A stretch of 60,898 bases of DNA from Sulfurovum sp. Its GTDB lineage: Bacteria; Campylobacterota; Campylobacteria; Campylobacterales; Sulfurovaceae. Position 1 is the stretch's first letter. Every line of letters begins with the position of its first letter. The stretch covers positions 1 to 60,898 of the forward strand of contig DYMX01000005.1 of the NCBI GenBank assembly GCA_020721345.1, given 5' to 3'. Below are positions 6,138-55,090 of the stretch, one piece after another. The notes beneath the pieces are model-generated. The model was not told the DNA's origin. It worked only from the letters and a program-made list of their open reading frames with translations, and searched no databases. A program made the position numbers and the translations under genes.

Positions 6138-7211
6138 CTACCACACCTTCAATTCATTATAAAGGCTGTCTCTCTCGACAGGTACAAATCCTGCATTTTT
6201 GATAAGCCCTACAAACTCATCAAGTGCCATACCATTGGCGCTTTTTGCTCCTGCTGCAGACTGTATAGACTCTTTTTCTATAGTACCGTCCAAGTCGTCA
6301 CATCCGTACTCTTGCGCAATGAGAGCAAGACCTATAGATGATGTAACCCAATAAGCTTTGATATGAGGAATATTGTCAAGAAGTATGCGGCTAATCGCAT
6401 AAGTTTTTAGTATCTCAACCGCTGTTGGATAATTTTCAACACGCAAAAAGTTGTTGTCTCTTTGGTACACCAAAGGTATAAAAGCATTAAATCCGCCTGT
6501 AATGTCTTGAAGGTCTCGAAGGCGCAGTATGTGATCTATCCTATGTTCTCTGCTCTCCACATGACCAAACAGCATAGTTGCATTGCTTTGTCTTCCTCTT
6601 TCATGCCATTTTCTATGAATTTCGAGCCACTGCTTGGAGCTTACCTTGCCTTTACATAAATACTCACGAACCTCCTCGTCAAATATCTCTGCTCCGCCTC
6701 CCGGCATGCTGTCCACCCTATTTGCTATCATCATATCTATTATCGTGTCATAATCGTACCCATACTGTCTTGAAAGAAAATCGACCTCTGCTGCCGTGAG
6801 AGCTTTGATGTGAATATCAGGCAAAGCATTTTTTACTTTTCTAAATGCACCCATATACCAATCAAGTCCGGCATCAGGATTGTGAGCTGAAACTATATGG
6901 ACTTCCTTTGCTCCCTTTGCATAAGATTTTTTAGCAATATCAACAATTTCATCATGACTCATGGCATATGGGTTTGGATTTTTTCTGCTTGCGGAATATG
7001 CACAAAATTTGCAAATGTCGGCACAAATATTTGTAGGGTTTATGTGACGGTTGATATTGAAATAGCTCTTGTTTCCAAATCTATTTTTTCTTATATTGTC
7101 GGCTAATCTGCCCAAAGTATCCAAATCTAAATCATAAAGCTTATTTGCCTCTTCTTTGGTAAGTCTTGTACCGTCTGCTATTTTTTTAACCAAATCCATC
7201 CAACAATCCAT
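6138..7211 (-). CDS. mqnE: Aminofutalosine synthase (radical SAM, menaquinone synthesis)
   Basis: A 357-residue radical SAM enzyme. The cluster motif is CADICKFC (Cys63, Cys67, Cys70), the CX3CX2C of the family. EVHIVSAHNPDAGLDWY, the MPGGGAEIF loop and NATMLFGHVE match the MqnE/MqnC group, and KAYWVTSSIGLALIAQ points to MqnE. It joins SAM's adenosyl radical to 3-[(1-carboxyvinyl)oxy]benzoate to give aminofutalosine, an early step of menaquinone synthesis by the futalosine route used by Campylobacterota. It heads the minus-strand set with the phosphoribosyltransferase and trpG. A second in-frame ATG four codons later could be the true start; neither has a clear ribosome site. Confidence 0.9.
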   Translation of the reverse strand: MDCWMDLVKKIADGTRLTKEEANKLYDLDLDTLGRLADNIRKNRFGNKSYFNINRHINPTNICADICKFCAYSASRKNPNPYAMSHDEIVDIAKKSYAKGAKEVHIVSAHNPDAGLDWYMGAFRKVKNALPDIHIKALTAAEVDFLSRQYGYDYDTIIDMMIANRVDSMPGGGAEIFDEEVREYLCKGKVSSKQWLEIHRKWHERGRQSNATMLFGHVESREHRIDHILRLRDLQDITGGFNAFIPLVYQRDNNFLRVENYPTAVEILKTYAISRILLDNIPHIKAYWVTSSIGLALIAQEYGCDDLDGTIEKESIQSAAGAKSANGMALDEFVGLIKNAGFVPVERDSLYNELKVW

Positions 7212-7263
7212 GTAATTTTTTGCTATTATAGCAAAATAATTGTTCAGAGCTTGATGGAATACA

Positions 7264-7333
7264 AAAAAGAGCGACTGGCCGCAAGAGCGCTCACGCTGAA
7301 GACATAATTTTTAGCTTTGCTAAAAATTAGAGA
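7264..7333 (+). repeat. Dispersed three-hairpin element, copy 1
   Basis: First of four related elements in the window, here between divergent mqnE and the glnD remnant. It keeps the AAAAAGAGCGACT start, the GCTGAAGAC core and a perfect 11-bp final stem (7305-7315 with 7319-7329, loop TTT). The first stem is degenerate (GACTGGCCGC) and the GGTCT arm of the middle stem is replaced by GCTCAC. The element ends about 20 bp before the glnD remnant opens, so it could carry or modify the promoter for glnD'-glmS. Confidence 0.75.
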
Positions 7334-7354
7334 ATCAATGATAAACAAGAGATT

Positions 7355-8074
7355 TTGGTGAAAAAATTAAAAGAAGAGATAGAAGAACTCATTTACAACA
7401 ATGCTTCAAATCTGCAAATTGCAAAAACTATTAAAAACAATCTAAAAGAGTACTTTGAAAGCCTAAATGAGGTATTTAAACAAAGCGGCGGCAAGGATTT
7501 TCTTGTAAGCCATACAAAATATATCGATAATATTATGCAAATCATTTATCTTGTGAGCATCAGAGAAGCCTTTGGACTGTTTATGCCTCCAAAAAACTCT
7601 ATTCCTGTATCACTTGTCGCACTTGGAAGCTATGGCAGAGAAATTATGCATATATAGCGATATAGACCCATTGTAAATATGGATATATTTAAGATCTTTG
7701 ACGATTTAAGATATTTTAAAATCGAATATAATGAAAAGGTAACAGATGATGACATCATGCTGATAAAAGAGATCATAGCAGATTCATTTGACCTAAATAA
7801 GAAAATCAATATAGCAAAACCTGTTATATTGCCAAAAGAGATAGAGTTTGATTGTGAGCACTCTCAAAATTACGCATCAATGTATCTGCATACAAAAAAC
7901 CAAAAAGGCTTACTTGCGTATGTAATTGAGATATTTGACGACATGTCTATTGATATAGCAAGCGCTAAAATTTTAACTGTAAAAAATCGTGCTAGAAATA
8001 TGTTTCTAATCGAAAAAGATGGAAACTTTTGCAATAATATCAAATTAATTAGCAAAAAATTGACTCAAGGGTAA
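7355..8074 (+). pseudogene. glnD: Broken glnD (PII uridylyltransferase): first and last parts only
   Basis: Two fragments of one large gene. The first, 7355-7657, encodes about 100 residues ending IPVSLVALGSYGRE, the opening of a GlnD nucleotidyltransferase domain. Reading on in another frame from about 7647 gives LCIYSDIDP, the metal-binding continuation of the same motif, so roughly two bases are missing at the GRE codons. That frame stops at 7671-7673. The second fragment, 7679-8074, encodes 131 residues resembling the C-terminal ACT region (YASMYLHTKNQKGLLAYVIEIF, then IDIASAKILTVKNRARNMF). Intact GlnD is about 800 residues or more, so the middle, with the rest of the transferase and the HD uridylyl-removing domain, is gone. 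The tail ends 4 bp before glmS. The first codon is TTG, with GTG three bases later. Confidence 0.8.
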
Positions 8075-8078
8075 AATT

Positions 8079-9887
8079 ATGTGTGGAATTGTAGGCTATA
8101 TAGGTCCCAAAGAAAAGAAAGAGATACTTCTAGACGGTCTGAAAGAACTTGAATATAGAGGCTACGATAGCGCCGGTATTGCGATTATTGAAAAGAAAAA
8201 ACTAAACAACTTCAAAGCTGTCGGGAAACTGGAAAATCTAGCAAATAAAACCAAAGATTATCACTCTAGCGGATTTGGAGTGGCAATAGGCCATACAAGA
8301 TGGGCAACACATGGAAAACCGACAGAATTAAATGCCCATCCGCATCTTGGCGAAAAAAGTTTTGTTGTGCATAATGGGATTATAGAAAATTACCAAGAGC
8401 TAAAACATAAATTACAAAAATCCGGAGTTACATTTGTAAGCCAAACGGACACGGAAACTATAGTGCATCTATTTGAGTACTATCAAAAACAAAATATGCA
8501 GGCTTTTGAAGCATTTAAAAAAACGGTTGACGAATTAGAAGGTGCTTACGCAACACTGCTTATAAGCGAAGTTGAACCTGATACGATATTTTTTGCAAAA
8601 AACGGCTCACCTATGCTTGTTGGTTTTGACGCTCAGGATATATATTTTGCTTCATCGGACACTCCGATAATCGGTAAAGCAAAAGAAGTTTACTATCTTG
8701 AAGACGGTGAATACGGCTATGCAAAAGACGGCGTCATTAGACTATATAATGAAAATGGCGAAAAAGCATTTACAAAACAGCCTCTATCAAAAGATAAAGC
8801 CTCTGCCCAAAAAGACGGATTTAGATTTTTTATGGAAAAAGAGATATATGAACAAAGCCGCGTAATGAGCGAAACTATGATGGGCAGAGTAAATGATGAC
8901 TCGATATACTTTGAAGAGCTTGATAGTGAATTTTTAAAAGATATAAGCGCTATAAAGATATGCGCGTGCGGGACAAGCTATCATTCTGCTTTGGCATCAA
9001 GCTATCTGTTTGAGAGACTAGCGCGCATTCCTTGCGTGGTAGAGATAGCGTCTGAATTTAGATACAAAGAGCCTTTGCTGGATAAAAATACGCTTTTTAT
9101 AACTATAAGCCAAAGCGGAGAAACAGCGGATACTTTAGAGGCTCTTAAAATGGCAAAGAGAGCCGGACTAAAAAGTCTTAGTATTTGCAATGTTGATAAC
9201 TCATCAATTGTGCGAGAAAGCGACAAAGCAATTCTCACAAGAGCAGGCATAGAAAAAGGGGTAGCGAGTACAAAAGCTTTTGCAACTCAAACAATGGTGC
9301 TTTGGATGTTGAGCGTTTATATGGCAAGCTTAAAAGGAACAATTTCACAAGATGTAGTTAAAGGCGAGATAGATGCAATGATACATACGCCAAAAGCGCT
9401 ACTTGTAAATGATGATCTTCATACAAAAATTCATAGACTTTCAAAAAGATATCTTCACGGTCACGGCTTTTTCTTTATCGGCAGAGATATCTTTTTCCCT
9501 CTTGCTCTTGAAGGAGCGTTGAAACTCAAAGAGATAAGTTATCTCCACGCAGAGGGCTACCCTGCAGGAGAAATGAAACATGGACCTATTGCTTTAGCCG
9601 ACAGTCATCTTTTTACAGTGGCTCTAATGCCGCGTACTATTCATTATGAAAAAATAAAAAGCAATGTAGAGGAGTTAAGCGCTAGAGATGCCACTATACT
9701 TGCCATCTCTCCACTGCCGTTTAATTTAGCAGATGATTTTGTCCAAACGCATTATGATTCACATCCGATGCTTGAGTTTTTTGAAATGATGGTTATAACA
9801 CAACTTTTAGCTCTTGAAATTTCTGTTAGACTTGGGAATGATGTGGATATGCCTAGAAACTTGGCAAAAAGTGTTACTGTAGAATAA
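8079..9887 (+). CDS. glmS: Glutamine-fructose-6-phosphate aminotransferase (isomerizing)
   Basis: A complete 602-residue GlmS, which makes glucosamine-6-phosphate from fructose-6-phosphate and glutamine, the first step to UDP-GlcNAc for peptidoglycan and LPS. It begins MCGIVGYIG, so Cys2 becomes the N-terminal nucleophile. The glutaminase domain has GHTRWATHGKP and NGIIENY (about residues 70-100). Two SIS sugar-isomerase domains follow (about 285-425 and 455-590) with CGTSYHSA and TISQSGETADT, and the C-terminus is MPRNLAKSVTVE. It starts 4 bp after the glnD remnant and probably still depends on a promoter upstream of that remnant. No glmS ribozyme is visible ahead of it. Confidence 0.97.
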   Translation: MCGIVGYIGPKEKKEILLDGLKELEYRGYDSAGIAIIEKKKLNNFKAVGKLENLANKTKDYHSSGFGVAIGHTRWATHGKPTELNAHPHLGEKSFVVHNGIIENYQELKHKLQKSGVTFVSQTDTETIVHLFEYYQKQNMQAFEAFKKTVDELEGAYATLLISEVEPDTIFFAKNGSPMLVGFDAQDIYFASSDTPIIGKAKEVYYLEDGEYGYAKDGVIRLYNENGEKAFTKQPLSKDKASAQKDGFRFFMEKEIYEQSRVMSETMMGRVNDDSIYFEELDSEFLKDISAIKICACGTSYHSALASSYLFERLARIPCVVEIASEFRYKEPLLDKNTLFITISQSGETADTLEALKMAKRAGLKSLSICNVDNSSIVRESDKAILTRAGIEKGVASTKAFATQTMVLWMLSVYMASLKGTISQDVVKGEIDAMIHTPKALLVNDDLHTKIHRLSKRYLHGHGFFFIGRDIFFPLALEGALKLKEISYLHAEGYPAGEMKHGPIALADSHLFTVALMPRTIHYEKIKSNVEELSARDATILAISPLPFNLADDFVQTHYDSHPMLEFFEMMVITQLLALEISVRLGNDVDMPRNLAKSVTVE

Positions 9888-9920: not shown

Positions 9921-9990
9921 AAAAAGAGCAACTAGTCGCGAGAACGGTCTGCTGAAGACCTAATTTTAGGCTTTGCCTAAAATTTGAGAG
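9921..9990 (+). repeat. Dispersed three-hairpin element, copy 2 (best preserved)
   Basis: It lies 34 bp after glmS, before the convergent small gene. Stem A is the near-palindrome CAACTAGTCGC at 9929-9939 (GCGACTAGTCGC in copy 4). Stem B is GGTCT-GCTGA-AGACC at 9947-9961. Stem C is AATTTTAGGC/GCCTAAAATT with a TTT loop (9962-9971 and 9975-9984). Copies 1 and 2 are in the same orientation and bracket the glnD'-glmS locus. The last stem may serve as a terminator for glmS, although no long U run follows. Confidence 0.8.
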
Positions 9991-10007
9991 TTAATCAAAT
10001 AATTGTA

Positions 10008-10268
10008 TTATTCCTCAAAATTCCTCATATCGGTAAATTCCGCTAGCAACTCTTCTATCTCATCATCGCTGAGCTCATCTCTTTTGATCTCTTCTAGGAT
10101 CGCAAAACACTCCGTTCTCATATCCCTAAGTTCTTCGAGATCTTCTTTATGCTCTTTGATGTCGCCACTATTTTCACTGATCTCTTCAAACAACTCATCT
10201 ATTGCCATTTCAAGATCAGGTATAATATCCTTTTCCAATAAATTATAAAGTTTGTCTTTTGAAGTCAT
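10008..10268 (-). CDS. Small acidic helical protein, unknown
   Basis: An 86-residue protein, very rich in Glu and Asp and predicted almost wholly helical, with heptad-like spacing around residues 20-65 (DELFEEISENSGDIKEHKE), so a short coiled coil is likely. I do not recognise a family. It starts at ATG 10268 behind an AAGGA site six bases upstream. The antisense frame is open too but is only a serine-rich mirror of this Glu/Asp-rich gene. It is transcribed alone, converging on glmS and diverging from lemA. Confidence 0.6.
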   Translation of the reverse strand: MTSKDKLYNLLEKDIIPDLEMAIDELFEEISENSGDIKEHKEDLEELRDMRTECFAILEEIKRDELSDDEIEELLAEFTDMRNFEE

Positions 10269-10340
10269 AATATTTCCTTGCTTATTTATTTAAAATTATA
10301 GCAGATAATTAAATTATTTATAACTCAGCAGAAAATAATG

Positions 10341-34035: not shown

Positions 34036-34890
34036 CTATTTATTGTTAAAGAACTTCAGGAAGTCTGATATGGTTTTTTTCATATCAAATCTATTTACAA
34101 CCATATCCACAAGTCCGTGCTGAAGTAGAAATTCTGATCTCTGGAACCCTTCAGGCAGATCAACGCCAACTGTTTGCTTTATAACCCTTGCGCCTGCAAA
34201 ACCTACAAGCGCGCCCGGTTCAGCTATAATGATATCTCCAAGCATAGCAAAAGAGGCGCTTACGCCACCCATGGTAGGGTCAGTAAGAACAGATATAAAA
34301 GGTAGTTTTGCGGCGGCAAGATGATTCAAAGCAGCAGAAGTTTTGCTCATCTGCATGAGCGAGTATGTACTTTCTTGCATCCTTGCACCACCGCTTGCGC
34401 TTATGATAATAACGCCTGTTCTATTCTCAATGGCTCTATTTACGGCTCTGACTATCTTTTCACCCTCAACAGAACCTAAGCTACCGCCCATGAAAGCAAA
34501 ATCAAACACAACAAGCTCTACCTCTTCTGTGTTTATCTGACAGCTTCCACTTACTATACATGATGTTTTTCCGGTTTTTGCCTTACTCTCTTCGAGTCTT
34601 TTTTTATAACTTTTTTTATCTGAAAACTCAAGCGGATCCGTTGGCGCTAAGTTTGCGTCAAACTCTACAAAAGTTCCCTCGTCAACAAGCAGAGAAATTC
34701 TTTTATCCGCGCTTATTCTAAAGTGATGATGACACTTTGGGCATACTTCATTTTTTGCTTCTATCTCTTTATAATAAACCAAAGACAAGCAGTTTGGACA
34801 TTTTATCCATTGATTATGAACGCTGGTCTGCGCTTCTTCTTTGTGCGCAACTTTATCATACATATTTTTAAATAGATTGCTAAATTTCAT
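34036..34890 (-). CDS. accD: Acetyl-CoA carboxylase carboxyltransferase, beta subunit
   Basis: A 284-residue AccD. The N-terminal zinc ribbon is CPNC (Cys31, Cys34) and CPKC (Cys50, Cys53). The crotonase-type core has VVFDFAFMGGSLGSVEGEKIVRA, IISASGGARMQE, LTDPTMGGVSASFAMLGDI and AEPGALVGFAGARVI. With AccA it moves CO2 from biotin to acetyl-CoA, making malonyl-CoA. In this organism the acetyl-CoA is likely to come from ATP citrate lyase. A copy of the dispersed three-hairpin element lies directly upstream, in the gap to the phosphatase-like gene. Confidence 0.95.
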   Translation of the reverse strand: MKFSNLFKNMYDKVAHKEEAQTSVHNQWIKCPNCLSLVYYKEIEAKNEVCPKCHHHFRISADKRISLLVDEGTFVEFDANLAPTDPLEFSDKKSYKKRLEESKAKTGKTSCIVSGSCQINTEEVELVVFDFAFMGGSLGSVEGEKIVRAVNRAIENRTGVIIISASGGARMQESTYSLMQMSKTSAALNHLAAAKLPFISVLTDPTMGGVSASFAMLGDIIIAEPGALVGFAGARVIKQTVGVDLPEGFQRSEFLLQHGLVDMVVNRFDMKKTISDFLKFFNNK

Positions 34891-34914
34891 TTATTCTCCT
34901 ACGAAACTATTAAT

Positions 34915-34983
34915 AATCTATTTTTTGGGCAAAACCCAAAAAATAGGTCTTCAACAGACGGCTCTCGCAACTTGTCGCTCTTA
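34915..34983 (-). repeat. Dispersed three-hairpin element, copy 3
   Basis: On the minus strand, between the inositol-phosphatase-like gene and accD, in their direction of transcription. Stem A is GCGAC-AA-GTTGC, stem B GTCT-GTTGA-AGAC, and stem C TATTTTTTGGG/CCCAAAAAATA (34919-34929 with 34935-34945). Stem C has GGG/CCC where copies 1 and 2 have AGC/GCT and GGC/GCC, so pairing is kept while bases change. Confidence 0.78.
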
Positions 34984-34988
34984 AATAC

Positions 34989-35717
34989 TTACTTTAAGCC
35001 ATTCAATATACCAAAGAGCTTGGCAACAATTTCTTTGTCTTTTGAAACTATAGCAAAATCTTCTTGTATTATTACTTCAAGATCTTTGCAAAGCGCCAAT
35101 CCTGCCACAACATCATATATCCTGATGGGGCCTACAAAAATGACAAAATCTACCCAGTGGGCATAAGCCAAAGAAAGCGCAACGGCTCCGGGCGATCTGA
35201 ATTTGATCTTGTTATCTTTAAGTAGCTGCACTATTTTTGGATTGTCATAAGCTCTTTCAAAAATACCTATTTTGCTAAAGTTATTTTTTTCTATTCTATC
35301 CCATTTATCATCAAACAATTTACCATACATAGGCACTTCTCCCTCGGATATCCAAAAAACTTCATTGCTAGCGAGATTGCAAACTATCGCATCTTCTAAT
35401 ATGCCATCACTGTTCAAAAGAGCGACCGAAGTTCCGTAATAACTAAAATTTGAAGTTATGTTGTCACTTCCATCTATGGGATCAATGATTATTTTATATT
35501 CACCATCATTCATGACACCGGACTCTTCTGATTCAATACTCCCAAACCTGCTCAAATGTTCAAAAAATATCTTTTCTGCAACAAGGTCAAAACCGCTGCT
35601 TATGTCTCCGCCTGCGCCCTTTGTATGCTTTTGATACATTGATTCTTTATCAATCAAATTGATCGCTTCAAAAACTTCTCTATTGGCTTTCAATGCTGTC
35701 TTTAAAAAATCATTCAT
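34989..35717 (-). CDS. Inositol monophosphatase family protein (CysQ/SuhB-like)
   Basis: A 242-residue metal-dependent phosphatase. The metal-binding motifs are SIESEESGVM, IIDPIDGSDN (classic DPIDGT/S) and the C-terminal IRIYDVVAGLALCKD, in place of WDxAAG. Candidate substrates are 3'-phosphoadenosine-5'-phosphate, inositol phosphate or a sugar phosphate, and the sequence does not say which. The altered C-terminal motif (YDVVAG) and the short length suggest a subfamily of its own. It lies 4 bp downstream of gltD. Confidence 0.8.
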   Translation of the reverse strand: MNDFLKTALKANREVFEAINLIDKESMYQKHTKGAGGDISSGFDLVAEKIFFEHLSRFGSIESEESGVMNDGEYKIIIDPIDGSDNITSNFSYYGTSVALLNSDGILEDAIVCNLASNEVFWISEGEVPMYGKLFDDKWDRIEKNNFSKIGIFERAYDNPKIVQLLKDNKIKFRSPGAVALSLAYAHWVDFVIFVGPIRIYDVVAGLALCKDLEVIIQEDFAIVSKDKEIVAKLFGILNGLK

Positions 35718-52170: not shown

Positions 52171-53876
52171 AAAAACTCATAATCACATATTTTCCATATT
52201 TTAAAGATTACAAGAGGGAATTTTTTATAGCCATTCTCGGAATGATCGCAGTTGCAGTGGGAACTGCGGGAACTGCGCATATAATCAAACCGGTACTAGA
52301 TGATATATTTATAAAAAAAGATGAACAAATGCTTTTCATCGTGCCGTTTGCCCTTGTTTTTGTTTTTGCTCTCAAAGGTATCGGCAGATATATACAGACA
52401 TACTATACTTCATATATCGGGCAAGATATCTTAAGGAGACTTAGAGAAGAGCTATTGTTCCACATAACAAAACTTGATATGGATTTTTTTAGAAAAAACC
52501 ATTCCGGTGTATTGCTATCGAGAATTACAAATGATATATCTCGTATACAGGGCGTTGTATCTGAGATAATCCCTGAACTTATAAGAGATATTTTTACCGT
52601 TATAGCTTTGGCGGGATATGTAATATATCAAAATCCAAAACTTGCGTTTTATTTTCTAATCATAATGCCGCTTGCCCTGCTGCCGCTATCTAAACTATCT
52701 AAAAAAATGAGAAAATACTCAAAATTATCGCAGCAAAGCACTGGAGATATGACAAAAAGGCTTGAAGAGGTTTTTTCCAACATAGAAGTGATCAAATCAA
52801 ATTCGTCTCAAAAATTTGAGCTTAATAGATTTGCAGTAGACAACTTGTCGGTTTTTAAGTATATAATGAAACAGGTCAGAGTAAATAATCTAACATCCCC
52901 TATCATGGAAGTGCTTGGCTCTATAGCAATAGGACTTGTGATTTTCGTAGGTGGAAAAGAAGTTATTGAGGGCAAAATGAGCGTTGGCGGTTTCTTCTCT
53001 TTTAGCGCCGCACTGTTTATGTTGTATGATCCGATCAAAGCTCTCTCCAAGCTATACAACAAAACACAAGATGCGGTAACTGCAAATGAAAGAATCAGGG
53101 AAATACTAAACATAGAACCTGAAATAAAAAGCGGAGAAAGTGAACTAAATCAAAAGATAGAAAATATCACACTGAAAGACGTTGTTTTAAAGTATGATGA
53201 AAAAGTGGCGCTTAAAAATATAAATTTATCTTTTCAAAAAGGTATGTTTTACGGTGTGGTCGGCGATAGCGGTGCCGGAAAAAGTTCTTTAGTAAATCTG
53301 CTTGTCAGATTTTATGATGCATCAAAAGGCGAACTTCTTATAAACGAACAAAACATAAAAAACTTTACTCTAAAGTCATTGCATAGAAAAATAGCCTATG
53401 TTACACAAAATATTTTTATATTTAACGACTCGATAGCCGCAAATGTTGCATACGGTGAAGAGATCAACAAGACAAAAGTTATTGAAGCTCTAAAAAAAGC
53501 GCATGCTTTTGAATTTGTAGAAAAACTTGATAACGGTATAGATACAATTTTAGCTCAAAGAGGCGCGAATCTATCGGGCGGACAAAGACAACGAATAGCT
53601 TTAGCGCGCGCTATCTATAAAAATCCTGATGTACTCATCCTTGATGAAGCAACCTCGGCGTTAGATAACATAAGCGAACAAAAGATAAAAGATGCGGTGT
53701 TTGAACTTAAAGATCAAATGATTGTAATAGCGATTGCTCATAGACTAAGCAGCATCCAAAACGCAGATGAAATCTTTTATTTTGCAAGCAGCGAAGTTGA
53801 ATGCAGCGGAACACATGAAGAGTTAATCAAAAATTGCAGCGGATATAAAAAACTTAGCAAGATCTCCCAAAAATAA
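52167..53876 (+). CDS. ABC exporter, fused permease-ATPase (MsbA-like)
   Basis: About 569 residues from TTG 52167 with GGGAG upstream; the start overlaps the cysS stop. Six membrane helices occupy residues about 15-300, with the coupling-helix region QDILRRLREELLFHITKLDMDFF. The ATPase domain has Walker A GDSGAGKSSL, LSGGQRQRIALARAI and Walker B VLILDEATSALD, and the H loop is AIAHRLSS. The closest well-known member is MsbA, the lipid A flippase, but related exporters carry other lipids or peptides. The next gene, pyrD, is 146 bp away beyond a dispersed element. Confidence 0.88.
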   Translation: MKKLIITYFPYFKDYKREFFIAILGMIAVAVGTAGTAHIIKPVLDDIFIKKDEQMLFIVPFALVFVFALKGIGRYIQTYYTSYIGQDILRRLREELLFHITKLDMDFFRKNHSGVLLSRITNDISRIQGVVSEIIPELIRDIFTVIALAGYVIYQNPKLAFYFLIIMPLALLPLSKLSKKMRKYSKLSQQSTGDMTKRLEEVFSNIEVIKSNSSQKFELNRFAVDNLSVFKYIMKQVRVNNLTSPIMEVLGSIAIGLVIFVGGKEVIEGKMSVGGFFSFSAALFMLYDPIKALSKLYNKTQDAVTANERIREILNIEPEIKSGESELNQKIENITLKDVVLKYDEKVALKNINLSFQKGMFYGVVGDSGAGKSSLVNLLVRFYDASKGELLINEQNIKNFTLKSLHRKIAYVTQNIFIFNDSIAANVAYGEEINKTKVIEALKKAHAFEFVEKLDNGIDTILAQRGANLSGGQRQRIALARAIYKNPDVLILDEATSALDNISEQKIKDAVFELKDQMIVIAIAHRLSSIQNADEIFYFASSEVECSGTHEELIKNCSGYKKLSKISQK

Positions 53877-53911
53877 CTCTTATAAAGTTTTGGATATACT
53901 TACGATAATAT

Positions 53912-53977
53912 CTAATTTTAAGCAAAGTTCAAAATTAGGTCTTCAGCAGACCGCTCTCGCGACTAGTCGCTTTTTTA
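53912..53977 (-). repeat. Dispersed three-hairpin element, copy 4
   Basis: Minus orientation between the ABC exporter gene and pyrD, so it is antisense to both. It has the perfect palindrome GCGACTAGTCGC, the GGTCT-GCTGA-AGACC middle stem and a final stem weakened by two mismatches (TAATTTTGAAC with GCTTAAAATTA). Copies 1-3 read with the neighbouring genes, so orientation is not fixed. Confidence 0.78.
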
Positions 53978-54022: not shown

Positions 54023-55090
54023 GTGCAACTTTGTTCATACCAAACAGCTAAAAAAATATTTTTTATGATGGATCCTGAAAATGCTCACGGGGTTGTTAAT
54101 TTTGCATTAAAAGTTGTAGAAAAACTACCTTTTTTGCAATCGTTACTATCAAAATACTATAAAGTTTCTAACCCTATATTGGCACAAAATATATTCGGTA
54201 AAACTTTTGAAAATCCGATAGGTCTTGGAGCCGGTTTTGATAAAAACAGCGATTATATACTAGCAATGAAATCGCTCGGATTTGGATTTACTGAAGTCGG
54301 CACCGTTACGCCGCTTCCTCAAGACGGCAATCCAAATCCTAGACTTTTTAGGCTAATAGAAGAGAGATCTATACAAAATGCTATGGGTTTTAACAATAAG
54401 GGCATGGAATATATGGCAAATATTTTATCTCATTATGAAAACTCAGACTTTCCAATCGGCGTGAATATAGGCAAAAATAAGCTTACACCGCAAGATAATG
54501 CGCTTAGTGATTATGAAAAACTTATAGTAAAATTAGGCGGTTTCGGAGATTATATAGTTATAAATATATCTTCTCCAAATACTCCCGGTCTTAGAGATCT
54601 TCAAAATGAAGATTTCATAACATCACTGTTCAAAATGGCAAAAAAACTTACAACCAAACCTATTTTACTTAAAATCGCTCCAGATATGAGCAGCCAAGAT
54701 GCTATAAATTTATGCAAAATGGCCGTAGATGCTGGAGCAGACGGTATCATGGCTACAAATACTACAATAGATTATTCGTTAACTCCTAATGCACAAAAAT
54801 TTGGCGGAATAAGTGGCGAGTTGCTTAAAATTAAAAGCAGAAACCTATTTAAGGCAATTGGAAAAGAGTTTTTTGGTAAAACTTTGTTAATCTCAGTAGG
54901 CGGAATAGATAGCGCAAAAGAAGCGTATGAGAGAATAAAAGACGGAGCAACATTGGTGCAAGTTTATAGTATGCTTATTTATGAGGGTCCGGCGCTGATC
55001 AAAAATATCAACAATGGACTTATAGAGTTGCTAAAAGCAGATGGATATACGCATATTTCACAAGCAATAGGCGCAAATTGCAAAAAATAA
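54023..55090 (+). CDS. pyrD: Dihydroorotate dehydrogenase (quinone), class 2
   Basis: About 355 residues from GTG 54023, chosen because AAGGGG lies six bases upstream (a TTG at 54017 is too close). The N-terminal helices (to about 40) are the membrane/quinone part of class 2 enzymes. The FMN barrel has NPIGLGAGFDKNSDYI, EVGTVTPLPQDGNPNPRLFRL, NAMGFNNKGME, VINISSPNTPGLRDLQ, LLKIAPD and ISVGGIDSAKEAYERIKDGATLVQVYS. It oxidises dihydroorotate and passes electrons to the quinone pool (menaquinone here). It begins a conserved run with M16, dapA, fabL-type SDR and pgsA. Confidence 0.95.
   Translation: MQLCSYQTAKKIFFMMDPENAHGVVNFALKVVEKLPFLQSLLSKYYKVSNPILAQNIFGKTFENPIGLGAGFDKNSDYILAMKSLGFGFTEVGTVTPLPQDGNPNPRLFRLIEERSIQNAMGFNNKGMEYMANILSHYENSDFPIGVNIGKNKLTPQDNALSDYEKLIVKLGGFGDYIVINISSPNTPGLRDLQNEDFITSLFKMAKKLTTKPILLKIAPDMSSQDAINLCKMAVDAGADGIMATNTTIDYSLTPNAQKFGGISGELLKIKSRNLFKAIGKEFFGKTLLISVGGIDSAKEAYERIKDGATLVQVYSMLIYEGPALIKNINNGLIELLKADGYTHISQAIGANCKK

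Follow-up and report, generated by a model that had tools for sequence, protein, structure and literature searches.

The four related three-hairpin sequences in the window (the whole stretch of 60,898 nucleotides that was analysed) very probably belong to a family of short, non-coding, non-autonomous mobile repeats of the MITE/ERIC/REP-like kind, which an enzyme acting in trans has spread. The observed basis for this reading consists of the number of copies per genome, their presence in both orientations, a covarying fold, orthologous sites that are filled in one genome and empty in another, and terminal inverted repeats (TIRs) that also enclose unrelated interiors. In the proposed mechanism, an enzyme supplied in trans would spread the repeat through the genome. 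The conserved unit would be a folded single strand composed of stem-loop P1, the linker GAG-RGC, stem-loop P2 and stem-loop P3 with its TTT loop, and the GCYGA loop of P2 would pair back to the linker to form an H-type pseudoknot. By analogy with ERIC and Correia/NEMIS, copies that end up in leaders, intercistronic gaps and 3' ends would become structured parts of mRNAs, tolerated or occasionally useful to the host. The likely working mode, drawn from the same analogy, is that of a selfish mobile repeat: it would enter gaps that are transcribed and then form a structured segment of the mRNA.

Copies in the window and in the host genome

The host of the window is a Sulfurovum-like member of the Sulfurovaceae and not a Sulfurimonas; its metagenome-assembled genome (MAG) comprises 1.24 Mb in 51 contigs and is 98.9 % complete, and the contigs may conceal some element copies or rearrangements. 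A covariance model, R1, was built on 11 copies, all from this genome. At E < 1e-4 it retrieved approximately 23 copies genome-wide, and a reversed-pattern control for the element search gave 0 matches. All four copies reported in the initial annotation were found again to within a few bases, with R1 scores ranging from 56 to 95 bits (Table 1); copies 2 and 4 were part of the training set of R1 and copies 1 and 3 were outside it. Far from being confined to these four copies, the element has many relatives in this and other genomes.

The common order of parts (start, stem 1, stem 2, stem 3) was confirmed in an alignment of the four copies. The middle stem, originally given as GGTCT-GCTGA-AGACC, exists but consists of 4 bp (GUCU/AGAC), and it is not present in every copy: copy 1 has lost stem 2 and carries the variant middle region GCTCACGCTGAAGACA instead, with stem 3 intact. 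A 36-nt core model gives copy 1 only 10 bits. In copy 2, stem 1 contains an A.C mismatch.

Table 1 Coordinates of the four copies and of the parts of copy 2 (positions in the window; E values are genome-wide; neighbouring genes were assigned with Pfam)
Feature	Positions	Strand	Score or sequence	Setting or basis
Copy 1	7265..7336	+	R1 56.2 bits, E=1.6e-11	mqnC/cofH-like radical-SAM gene 6138-7199 (-); hypothetical gene 7358-7657 (+)
Copy 2	9922..9992	+	R1 94.7 bits, E=1.0e-21	Convergent gap, after glmS-like gene 8079-9887 (+), before gene 10008-10268 (-)
Copy 3	34912..34984	-	R1 72.7 bits, E=7e-16	Between suhB-like gene 34989-35717 (-) and accD 34036-34890 (-)
Copy 4	53906..53976	-	R1 87.4 bits, E=8.9e-20	Antisense between ABC-transporter gene 52242-53876 (+) and dihydroorotate dehydrogenase gene 54065-55090 (+)
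Stem-loop P1 of copy 2	9928..9939	+	GCAA-CTAG-TCGC, one A.C mismatch; consensus GCGA-CNAG-TCGC	Covariation
Pseudoknot 5' strand of copy 2	9943..9945	+	AAC; consensus AGC/GGC	Pairs with loop bases 9951-9953
Stem-loop P2 of copy 2	9947..9959	+	GTCT-GCTGA-AGAC	Covariation
Pseudoknot 3' strand in P2 loop of copy 2	9951..9953	+	GCT; consensus GCT/GCC
Stem-loop P3 of copy 2	9960..9986	+	CTAATTTTAGGC-TTT-GCCTAAAATTTG	Covariation
Degenerate 3' inverted-repeat end of copy 2	9987..10008	+	Consensus TTAATCAGATGGTTCAATT	Comparison with full-length copies

A covarying fold with a pseudoknot

The core begins with P1 (GCGA-CNAG-UCGC or a covarying variant), which is followed by G[A/U]G, RGC, a single free base and P2 (NNNY-GCYGA-RNNN). 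In the 11-copy alignment, 97.1 % of the cells are paired as compared to 88.8 % in shuffles, double-sided changes occur in 8 of the 19 pairs, and pairing is destroyed when the partners are slid against each other. All three stems show covariation. The description as three hairpins did not capture the full fold, as it overlooked a pseudoknot between the linker, GAG[AGC], and the loop of P2, [GCU]GA, in which the RGC of the linker pairs with the GCY of the loop. Among 126 distinct cores, the variable pair of this pseudoknot is A-U in 87, G-C in 34, A.C in 4 and G.U in 0 (Fisher p=1.6e-26, a statistic that ignores relatedness). The scan that yielded these cores required the stems, so that stem-pair covariation in this set is partly circular; the letters of the pseudoknot were left free. 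In loci of other families the counts are 24, 22, 3 and 0, respectively, and the G-C form was found repeatedly, in several genera. In copy 2, one of the three pseudoknot pairs is broken. As the letters of the pseudoknot covary and A.C is rare, selection seems to act on the core as a single strand; from the sequences we infer that this strand would be either RNA or single-stranded DNA (ssDNA) during transposition.

Single-copy RNAs fold only modestly better than shuffled sequences (z -1.3 to -3.6), for which reason the case is carried by covariation and copy number. In the full-length form with TIRs an outer stem encloses the three hairpins, with a z-score of -4.1 for RNA and of -4.7 for ssDNA. 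Folding alone, therefore, does not tell RNA from ssDNA. Relatives outside the genus carry an extra segment, YAGYGUUARCGUAG, on the 5' side of P3, the inner pair of which covaries (C-G 39, U-A 22, U.G 1). This wider form of the element, with a CGUAG foot at P3, is also represented by a few copies in the genome of the window (L036).

Filled and empty orthologous sites

The comparison of empty sites in sister genomes that the initial annotation had proposed was informative for the entire set: for each of the four window copies, one congener or more has an empty orthologous site. Copy 1 is absent in G010 and in G009, where the BLAST flanks are 96 % and 92 % identical and the segment corresponding to window positions ~7237-7341 is missing. 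G009 and G010 have copy 2 and G002 lacks it. Copy 3 is an insertion of ~89 nt that is absent in G009, G002, G010, G006 and G004; in these five congeners the suhB-like gene directly adjoins accD. In the genome of the window the suhB-like gene has a different end, copy 3 occupying the place of the last codons of this upstream gene in the sister genomes. Copy 4 is an insertion of ~96 nt, absent in G009, G010 and G002. Copies 1, 3 and 4 are missing from every close relative that aligns at the site, and copy 2 from one. Elsewhere, three relatives lack copy L024, which has a TTGACA...TATAAT promoter-like sequence on one side and a clpB-like gene on the other; two lack L030, which precedes a groEL-like gene; and G009 lacks L026 (~110 bp). 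Since the outgroups do not have the copies, these are most simply read as insertions. Copies 1, 3 and 4 have the appearance of recent insertions, and these filled and empty orthologous sites support mobility of the element.

At the site of copy 2, the P2 region reads GTCTGCTGAAGAC in the window (9943-9961) versus ATCACGCTGAAGAG in L105; the latter makes up a complete inverted repeat together with the GCGTGA upstream of it, and the difference suggests template switching or gene conversion. Since this region is not the same in the G000 and G009 orthologues of copy 2, copies also change in place.

Inverted-repeat ends and interchangeable interiors

Units of ~112-120 bp with GAACCCTCTGATTAA...TTAATCAGAGGGTTC-type ends were found in G425, G426, G427 and G009. 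Allowing up to 3 mismatches, these genomes contain 82, 66, 11 and 36 TIR matches, respectively, and controls gave 0-2; there is a single match in the genome of the window. The same ends enclose three different interiors: the element core (I), CCAAGAGTTTGCCACGACGGGAACCCC... (II), or a CGTCATTGCGAGG-type palindrome (III). A 4-bp AT-rich repeat is often seen on both sides of such units. The flanks match at some units (AAGT, GATT, AGTT or AATT) and are mismatched at others, and these repeats are probable target duplications. Window positions ~10311-10315 form an exact empty site at which G009 carries a ~120-bp MITE with interior II and has AAATT duplicated. A solo TIR end (L372/L397) adjoins a PAS/histidine-kinase-like gene.

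The search for flanking duplications that had been suggested at the outset gave an exact duplication for one TIR-ended unit and probable ones at some others. Neither TIRs nor a clear target duplication were seen at the core-only insertions of copies 3 and 4, L024 and L030. Either the ends have been lost from these copies or the core is able to move alone, and a single cut-and-paste mechanism does not explain all copies. Other lineages also lack TIR ends around the core. It is conceivable, although rather unlikely, that what is recognised and copied in is the core itself, folded as ssDNA or RNA, and not the TIRs, in an IS200/REP- or retro-like manner, the TIR-ended MITE being a secondary carrier; this would be a sub-case of the trans-mobilised repeat with a different mechanism. 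The starts of L024 and L030 nearly coincide with that of the core, and the ancestral sequence is retained ahead of it; copies 3 and 4 are devoid of TIRs, Sulfurospirillum- and Sulfurimonas-like copies carry other flanks, and the core fold is kept across families, all of which would fit such a mechanism. However, 5' truncation after TIR-mediated insertion could produce core-only copies as well, and no copy adjoins any of the 30 Y1 transposase loci examined (0 core matches around PF01797 matches). A similarly tentative candidate is a mobile pseudoknotted core, recognised by an enzyme as folded ssDNA or RNA and spread within one order of the Campylobacterota, that acts as a cargo module traded between flanking ends, including those of TIR-ended MITEs.

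A link to Y1/RAYT transposases was rejected, since the core does not lie near the 30 tested loci; three of these carry their own repeats. The Y1 transposase genes in question (L255, L254, L258) are bounded by the inverted repeats GGGGTCAGGT/ACCTGACCCC or close variants and represent a separate element type of this genus. No transposase gene was found between GAACCCTCTGATTAA-type ends among the matches listed, a subset of the sites having been read. The proposal of a small non-autonomous mobile or REP-like element made in the initial annotation is supported by copy number, unbiased orientation, the filled and empty sites, the TIR-ended versions with their probable target duplications, and the lack of an Rfam match.

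Gene context

In the host genome, 22 of the 23 copies lie outside genes, the window being ~89 % coding (p~3e-20). The statement that none is located inside a gene holds within the window but not genome-wide. One copy, L033/L010 (C47:58683), is read in frame, on the minus strand, as part of a methyltransferase-like gene with an NPPYV motif, in which the element takes up 72 nt or 24 codons. Orthologues in G006, G004, G442, G296, G022 and others align with residues 2-91/96 and again from 114-119 onward, skipping the stretch encoded by the element; in their DNA the flanking pieces are adjacent or overlapping. A second palindrome, of CGTC type, is apparently also in frame in the same open reading frame (L010 71-180, G000:C47).

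The orientation of the copies relative to genes is unbiased in genus g1 (++ 13, -- 17) and weakly sense overall (44:28, p=0.08; 20:12, p=0.22). Copy 4 is indeed antisense to both its neighbours, and copy 3 is sense to accD, the start codon of which lies ~20 nt downstream. Genes downstream of copies are of the accD, groEL, clpB, der, lysC, rplK and luxS types and share no common pathway; identities were assigned by Pfam in the window and from N-terminal sequence only elsewhere.

These data bear on two readings in which the element would serve the host. In the first, P1, P2 and the pseudoknot would form the receptor of a cis-acting regulatory RNA (riboswitch-like or a protein-binding leader) and P3 an expression platform hiding the ribosome-binding site. 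A conserved pseudoknotted core next to a variable P3 would be in keeping with this, as would two further observations: in f16 genomes and some of f1, many copies precede a start codon by 20-60 nt in sense orientation, and in some (L053, L143, L051) the ribosome-binding site falls inside P3. This reading is nevertheless improbable, as orientation is unbiased in g1, downstream genes look functionally unrelated by their N-termini, some copies are antisense to both neighbours, and recent insertions have occurred at unrelated genes. A dedicated riboswitch was rejected on the lack of both a shared pathway among the neighbours and an orientation bias. The second reading, intrinsic terminators or bidirectional 3'-end structures kept for transcription termination, draws on the many copies at no more than ~15 nt from stop codons and on P3, which is a strong hairpin upon folding. 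It is highly improbable: a U-run does not follow P3, matches in terminator scans are marginal with poor U-tracts, and copy 3 is located within a co-directional gene pair, upstream of accD. The mixed orientation to genes speaks against a dedicated riboswitch and a dedicated terminator alike. Of the regulatory or terminator use suggested initially, the terminator part is weakly supported at best; a regulatory use is possible.

At the Sulfurimonas-like f16 loci L352, L356, L359 and L361, upstream of genes, the copies run on into a further conserved hairpin block, the end of which is a ribosome-binding site (AAGGGTTTCCTTCATTTTATGAAATAAAATTAAGGA).

Distribution among relatives

Six of the ten other genomes of the same genus contain 8-15 copies and the remaining ones 0-5. 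The 36-nt core was found in 73 of the 397 sampled genomes of the phylum and in 13 of 68 genera, all within one order; named matches are mainly from Sulfurovum/Sulfurovaceae, with some from Sulfurospirillum, Sulfuricurvum and other Campylobacterales. Pattern matches in records from Planctomycetota, Actinomycetota and the like were devoid of the stem structure and were taken as chance. Searches of phages, plasmids and viral contigs gave no match to the element. It had not been recognised as a named family at first sight, and Rfam indeed gave no match at gathering or permissive thresholds. CGTAG-P3 hairpins number 46 in one f20 genome and 69 in another, against 3 in each reversed-pattern control. 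Of the 16 that were read from these two genomes, 11 carry the core, in some cases decayed, and 5 one alternative 5' module, CTGCCTCG...AGAGGCAAGC. An alternative 5' module (CTGCCTCGCAAGAGGCAAGC...) precedes CGTAG-P3 at the Sulfurospirillum-like f20 loci L434, L446, L458, L459 and L461. At L354, L341, L115, L164, L055, L175 and L174, two to four nearly identical copies stand in tandem, mostly spaced by ~76-126 nt.

The element represents an order-wide family of small mobile repeats, apparently undescribed in the libraries searched, whose RNA-like fold is under unusually tight constraint. The filled and empty sites offer a system in which to study how such elements move, and the same inverted-repeat ends are now seen with different hairpin interiors. 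Genes of the accD, clpB and groEL types have such a structured insert in their leaders or intercistronic gaps, and a possible effect on their expression could be tested directly in cultures of Sulfurimonas, Sulfurovum or Sulfurospirillum.

Comparison with known repeat families

ERIC/IRU (RU-1), Correia/NEMIS, RUP and YPAL are non-coding intergenic repeats of ~100-130 bp with inverted ends (PMC2229807). ERIC-type MITEs occur in both orientations, give rise to highly paired transcripts, and are known with target duplications and empty sites; ERIC and NEMIS enter transcribed gaps and become structured mRNA (PMC2229807). The present element, set beside ERIC by description, resembles these and other bacterial MITEs in size class, intergenic location, both orientations, a highly paired predicted fold and empty sites and, at its TIR-ended units, in inverted ends and probable target duplications. 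As a MITE it is short (a ~70-nt core and a full unit of ~112-120 bp, below 200 bp) and encodes no protein of its own, and orthologous sites are filled or empty for the four window copies, L024, L026 and L030. TIRs are clear in G425, G426, G427 and G009, match once in the genome of the window and are lacking at several core-only insertions. Unlike the single long stem of ERIC-type elements, it has a multi-hairpin, pseudoknotted core; its TIR ends swap interiors, and the core occurs without these ends in other genera. The Rickettsia palindromic elements, compared by description only, likewise include palindromic repeats in frame inside genes; for the present element such cases are an exception, with one among the 23 copies of this genome.

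REPs tagged with GTAG and CGTC have been reported in Sulfurovum NBC37-1 (Di Nocera et al. 2013, PMC3733652). The CGTAG foot and 3-nt loop of P3 in the wider form are reminiscent of the GTAG REPs, and MITE interior III resembles a CGTC-type palindrome. The GTAG family of NBC37-1 could, judging by these motifs, be the P3 module of the wider form. Window copies differ from GTAG REPs in having no GTAG at the foot of a hairpin, this being confined to P3 of the wider form, and the unit described here is a three-hairpin element of 70-120 nt. Relative to the literature and libraries examined, the novelty lies in the pseudoknotted core, in its occurrence throughout an order and in the swapping of interiors within the same ends; P3 of the wider form may coincide with one of the GTAG and CGTC families.
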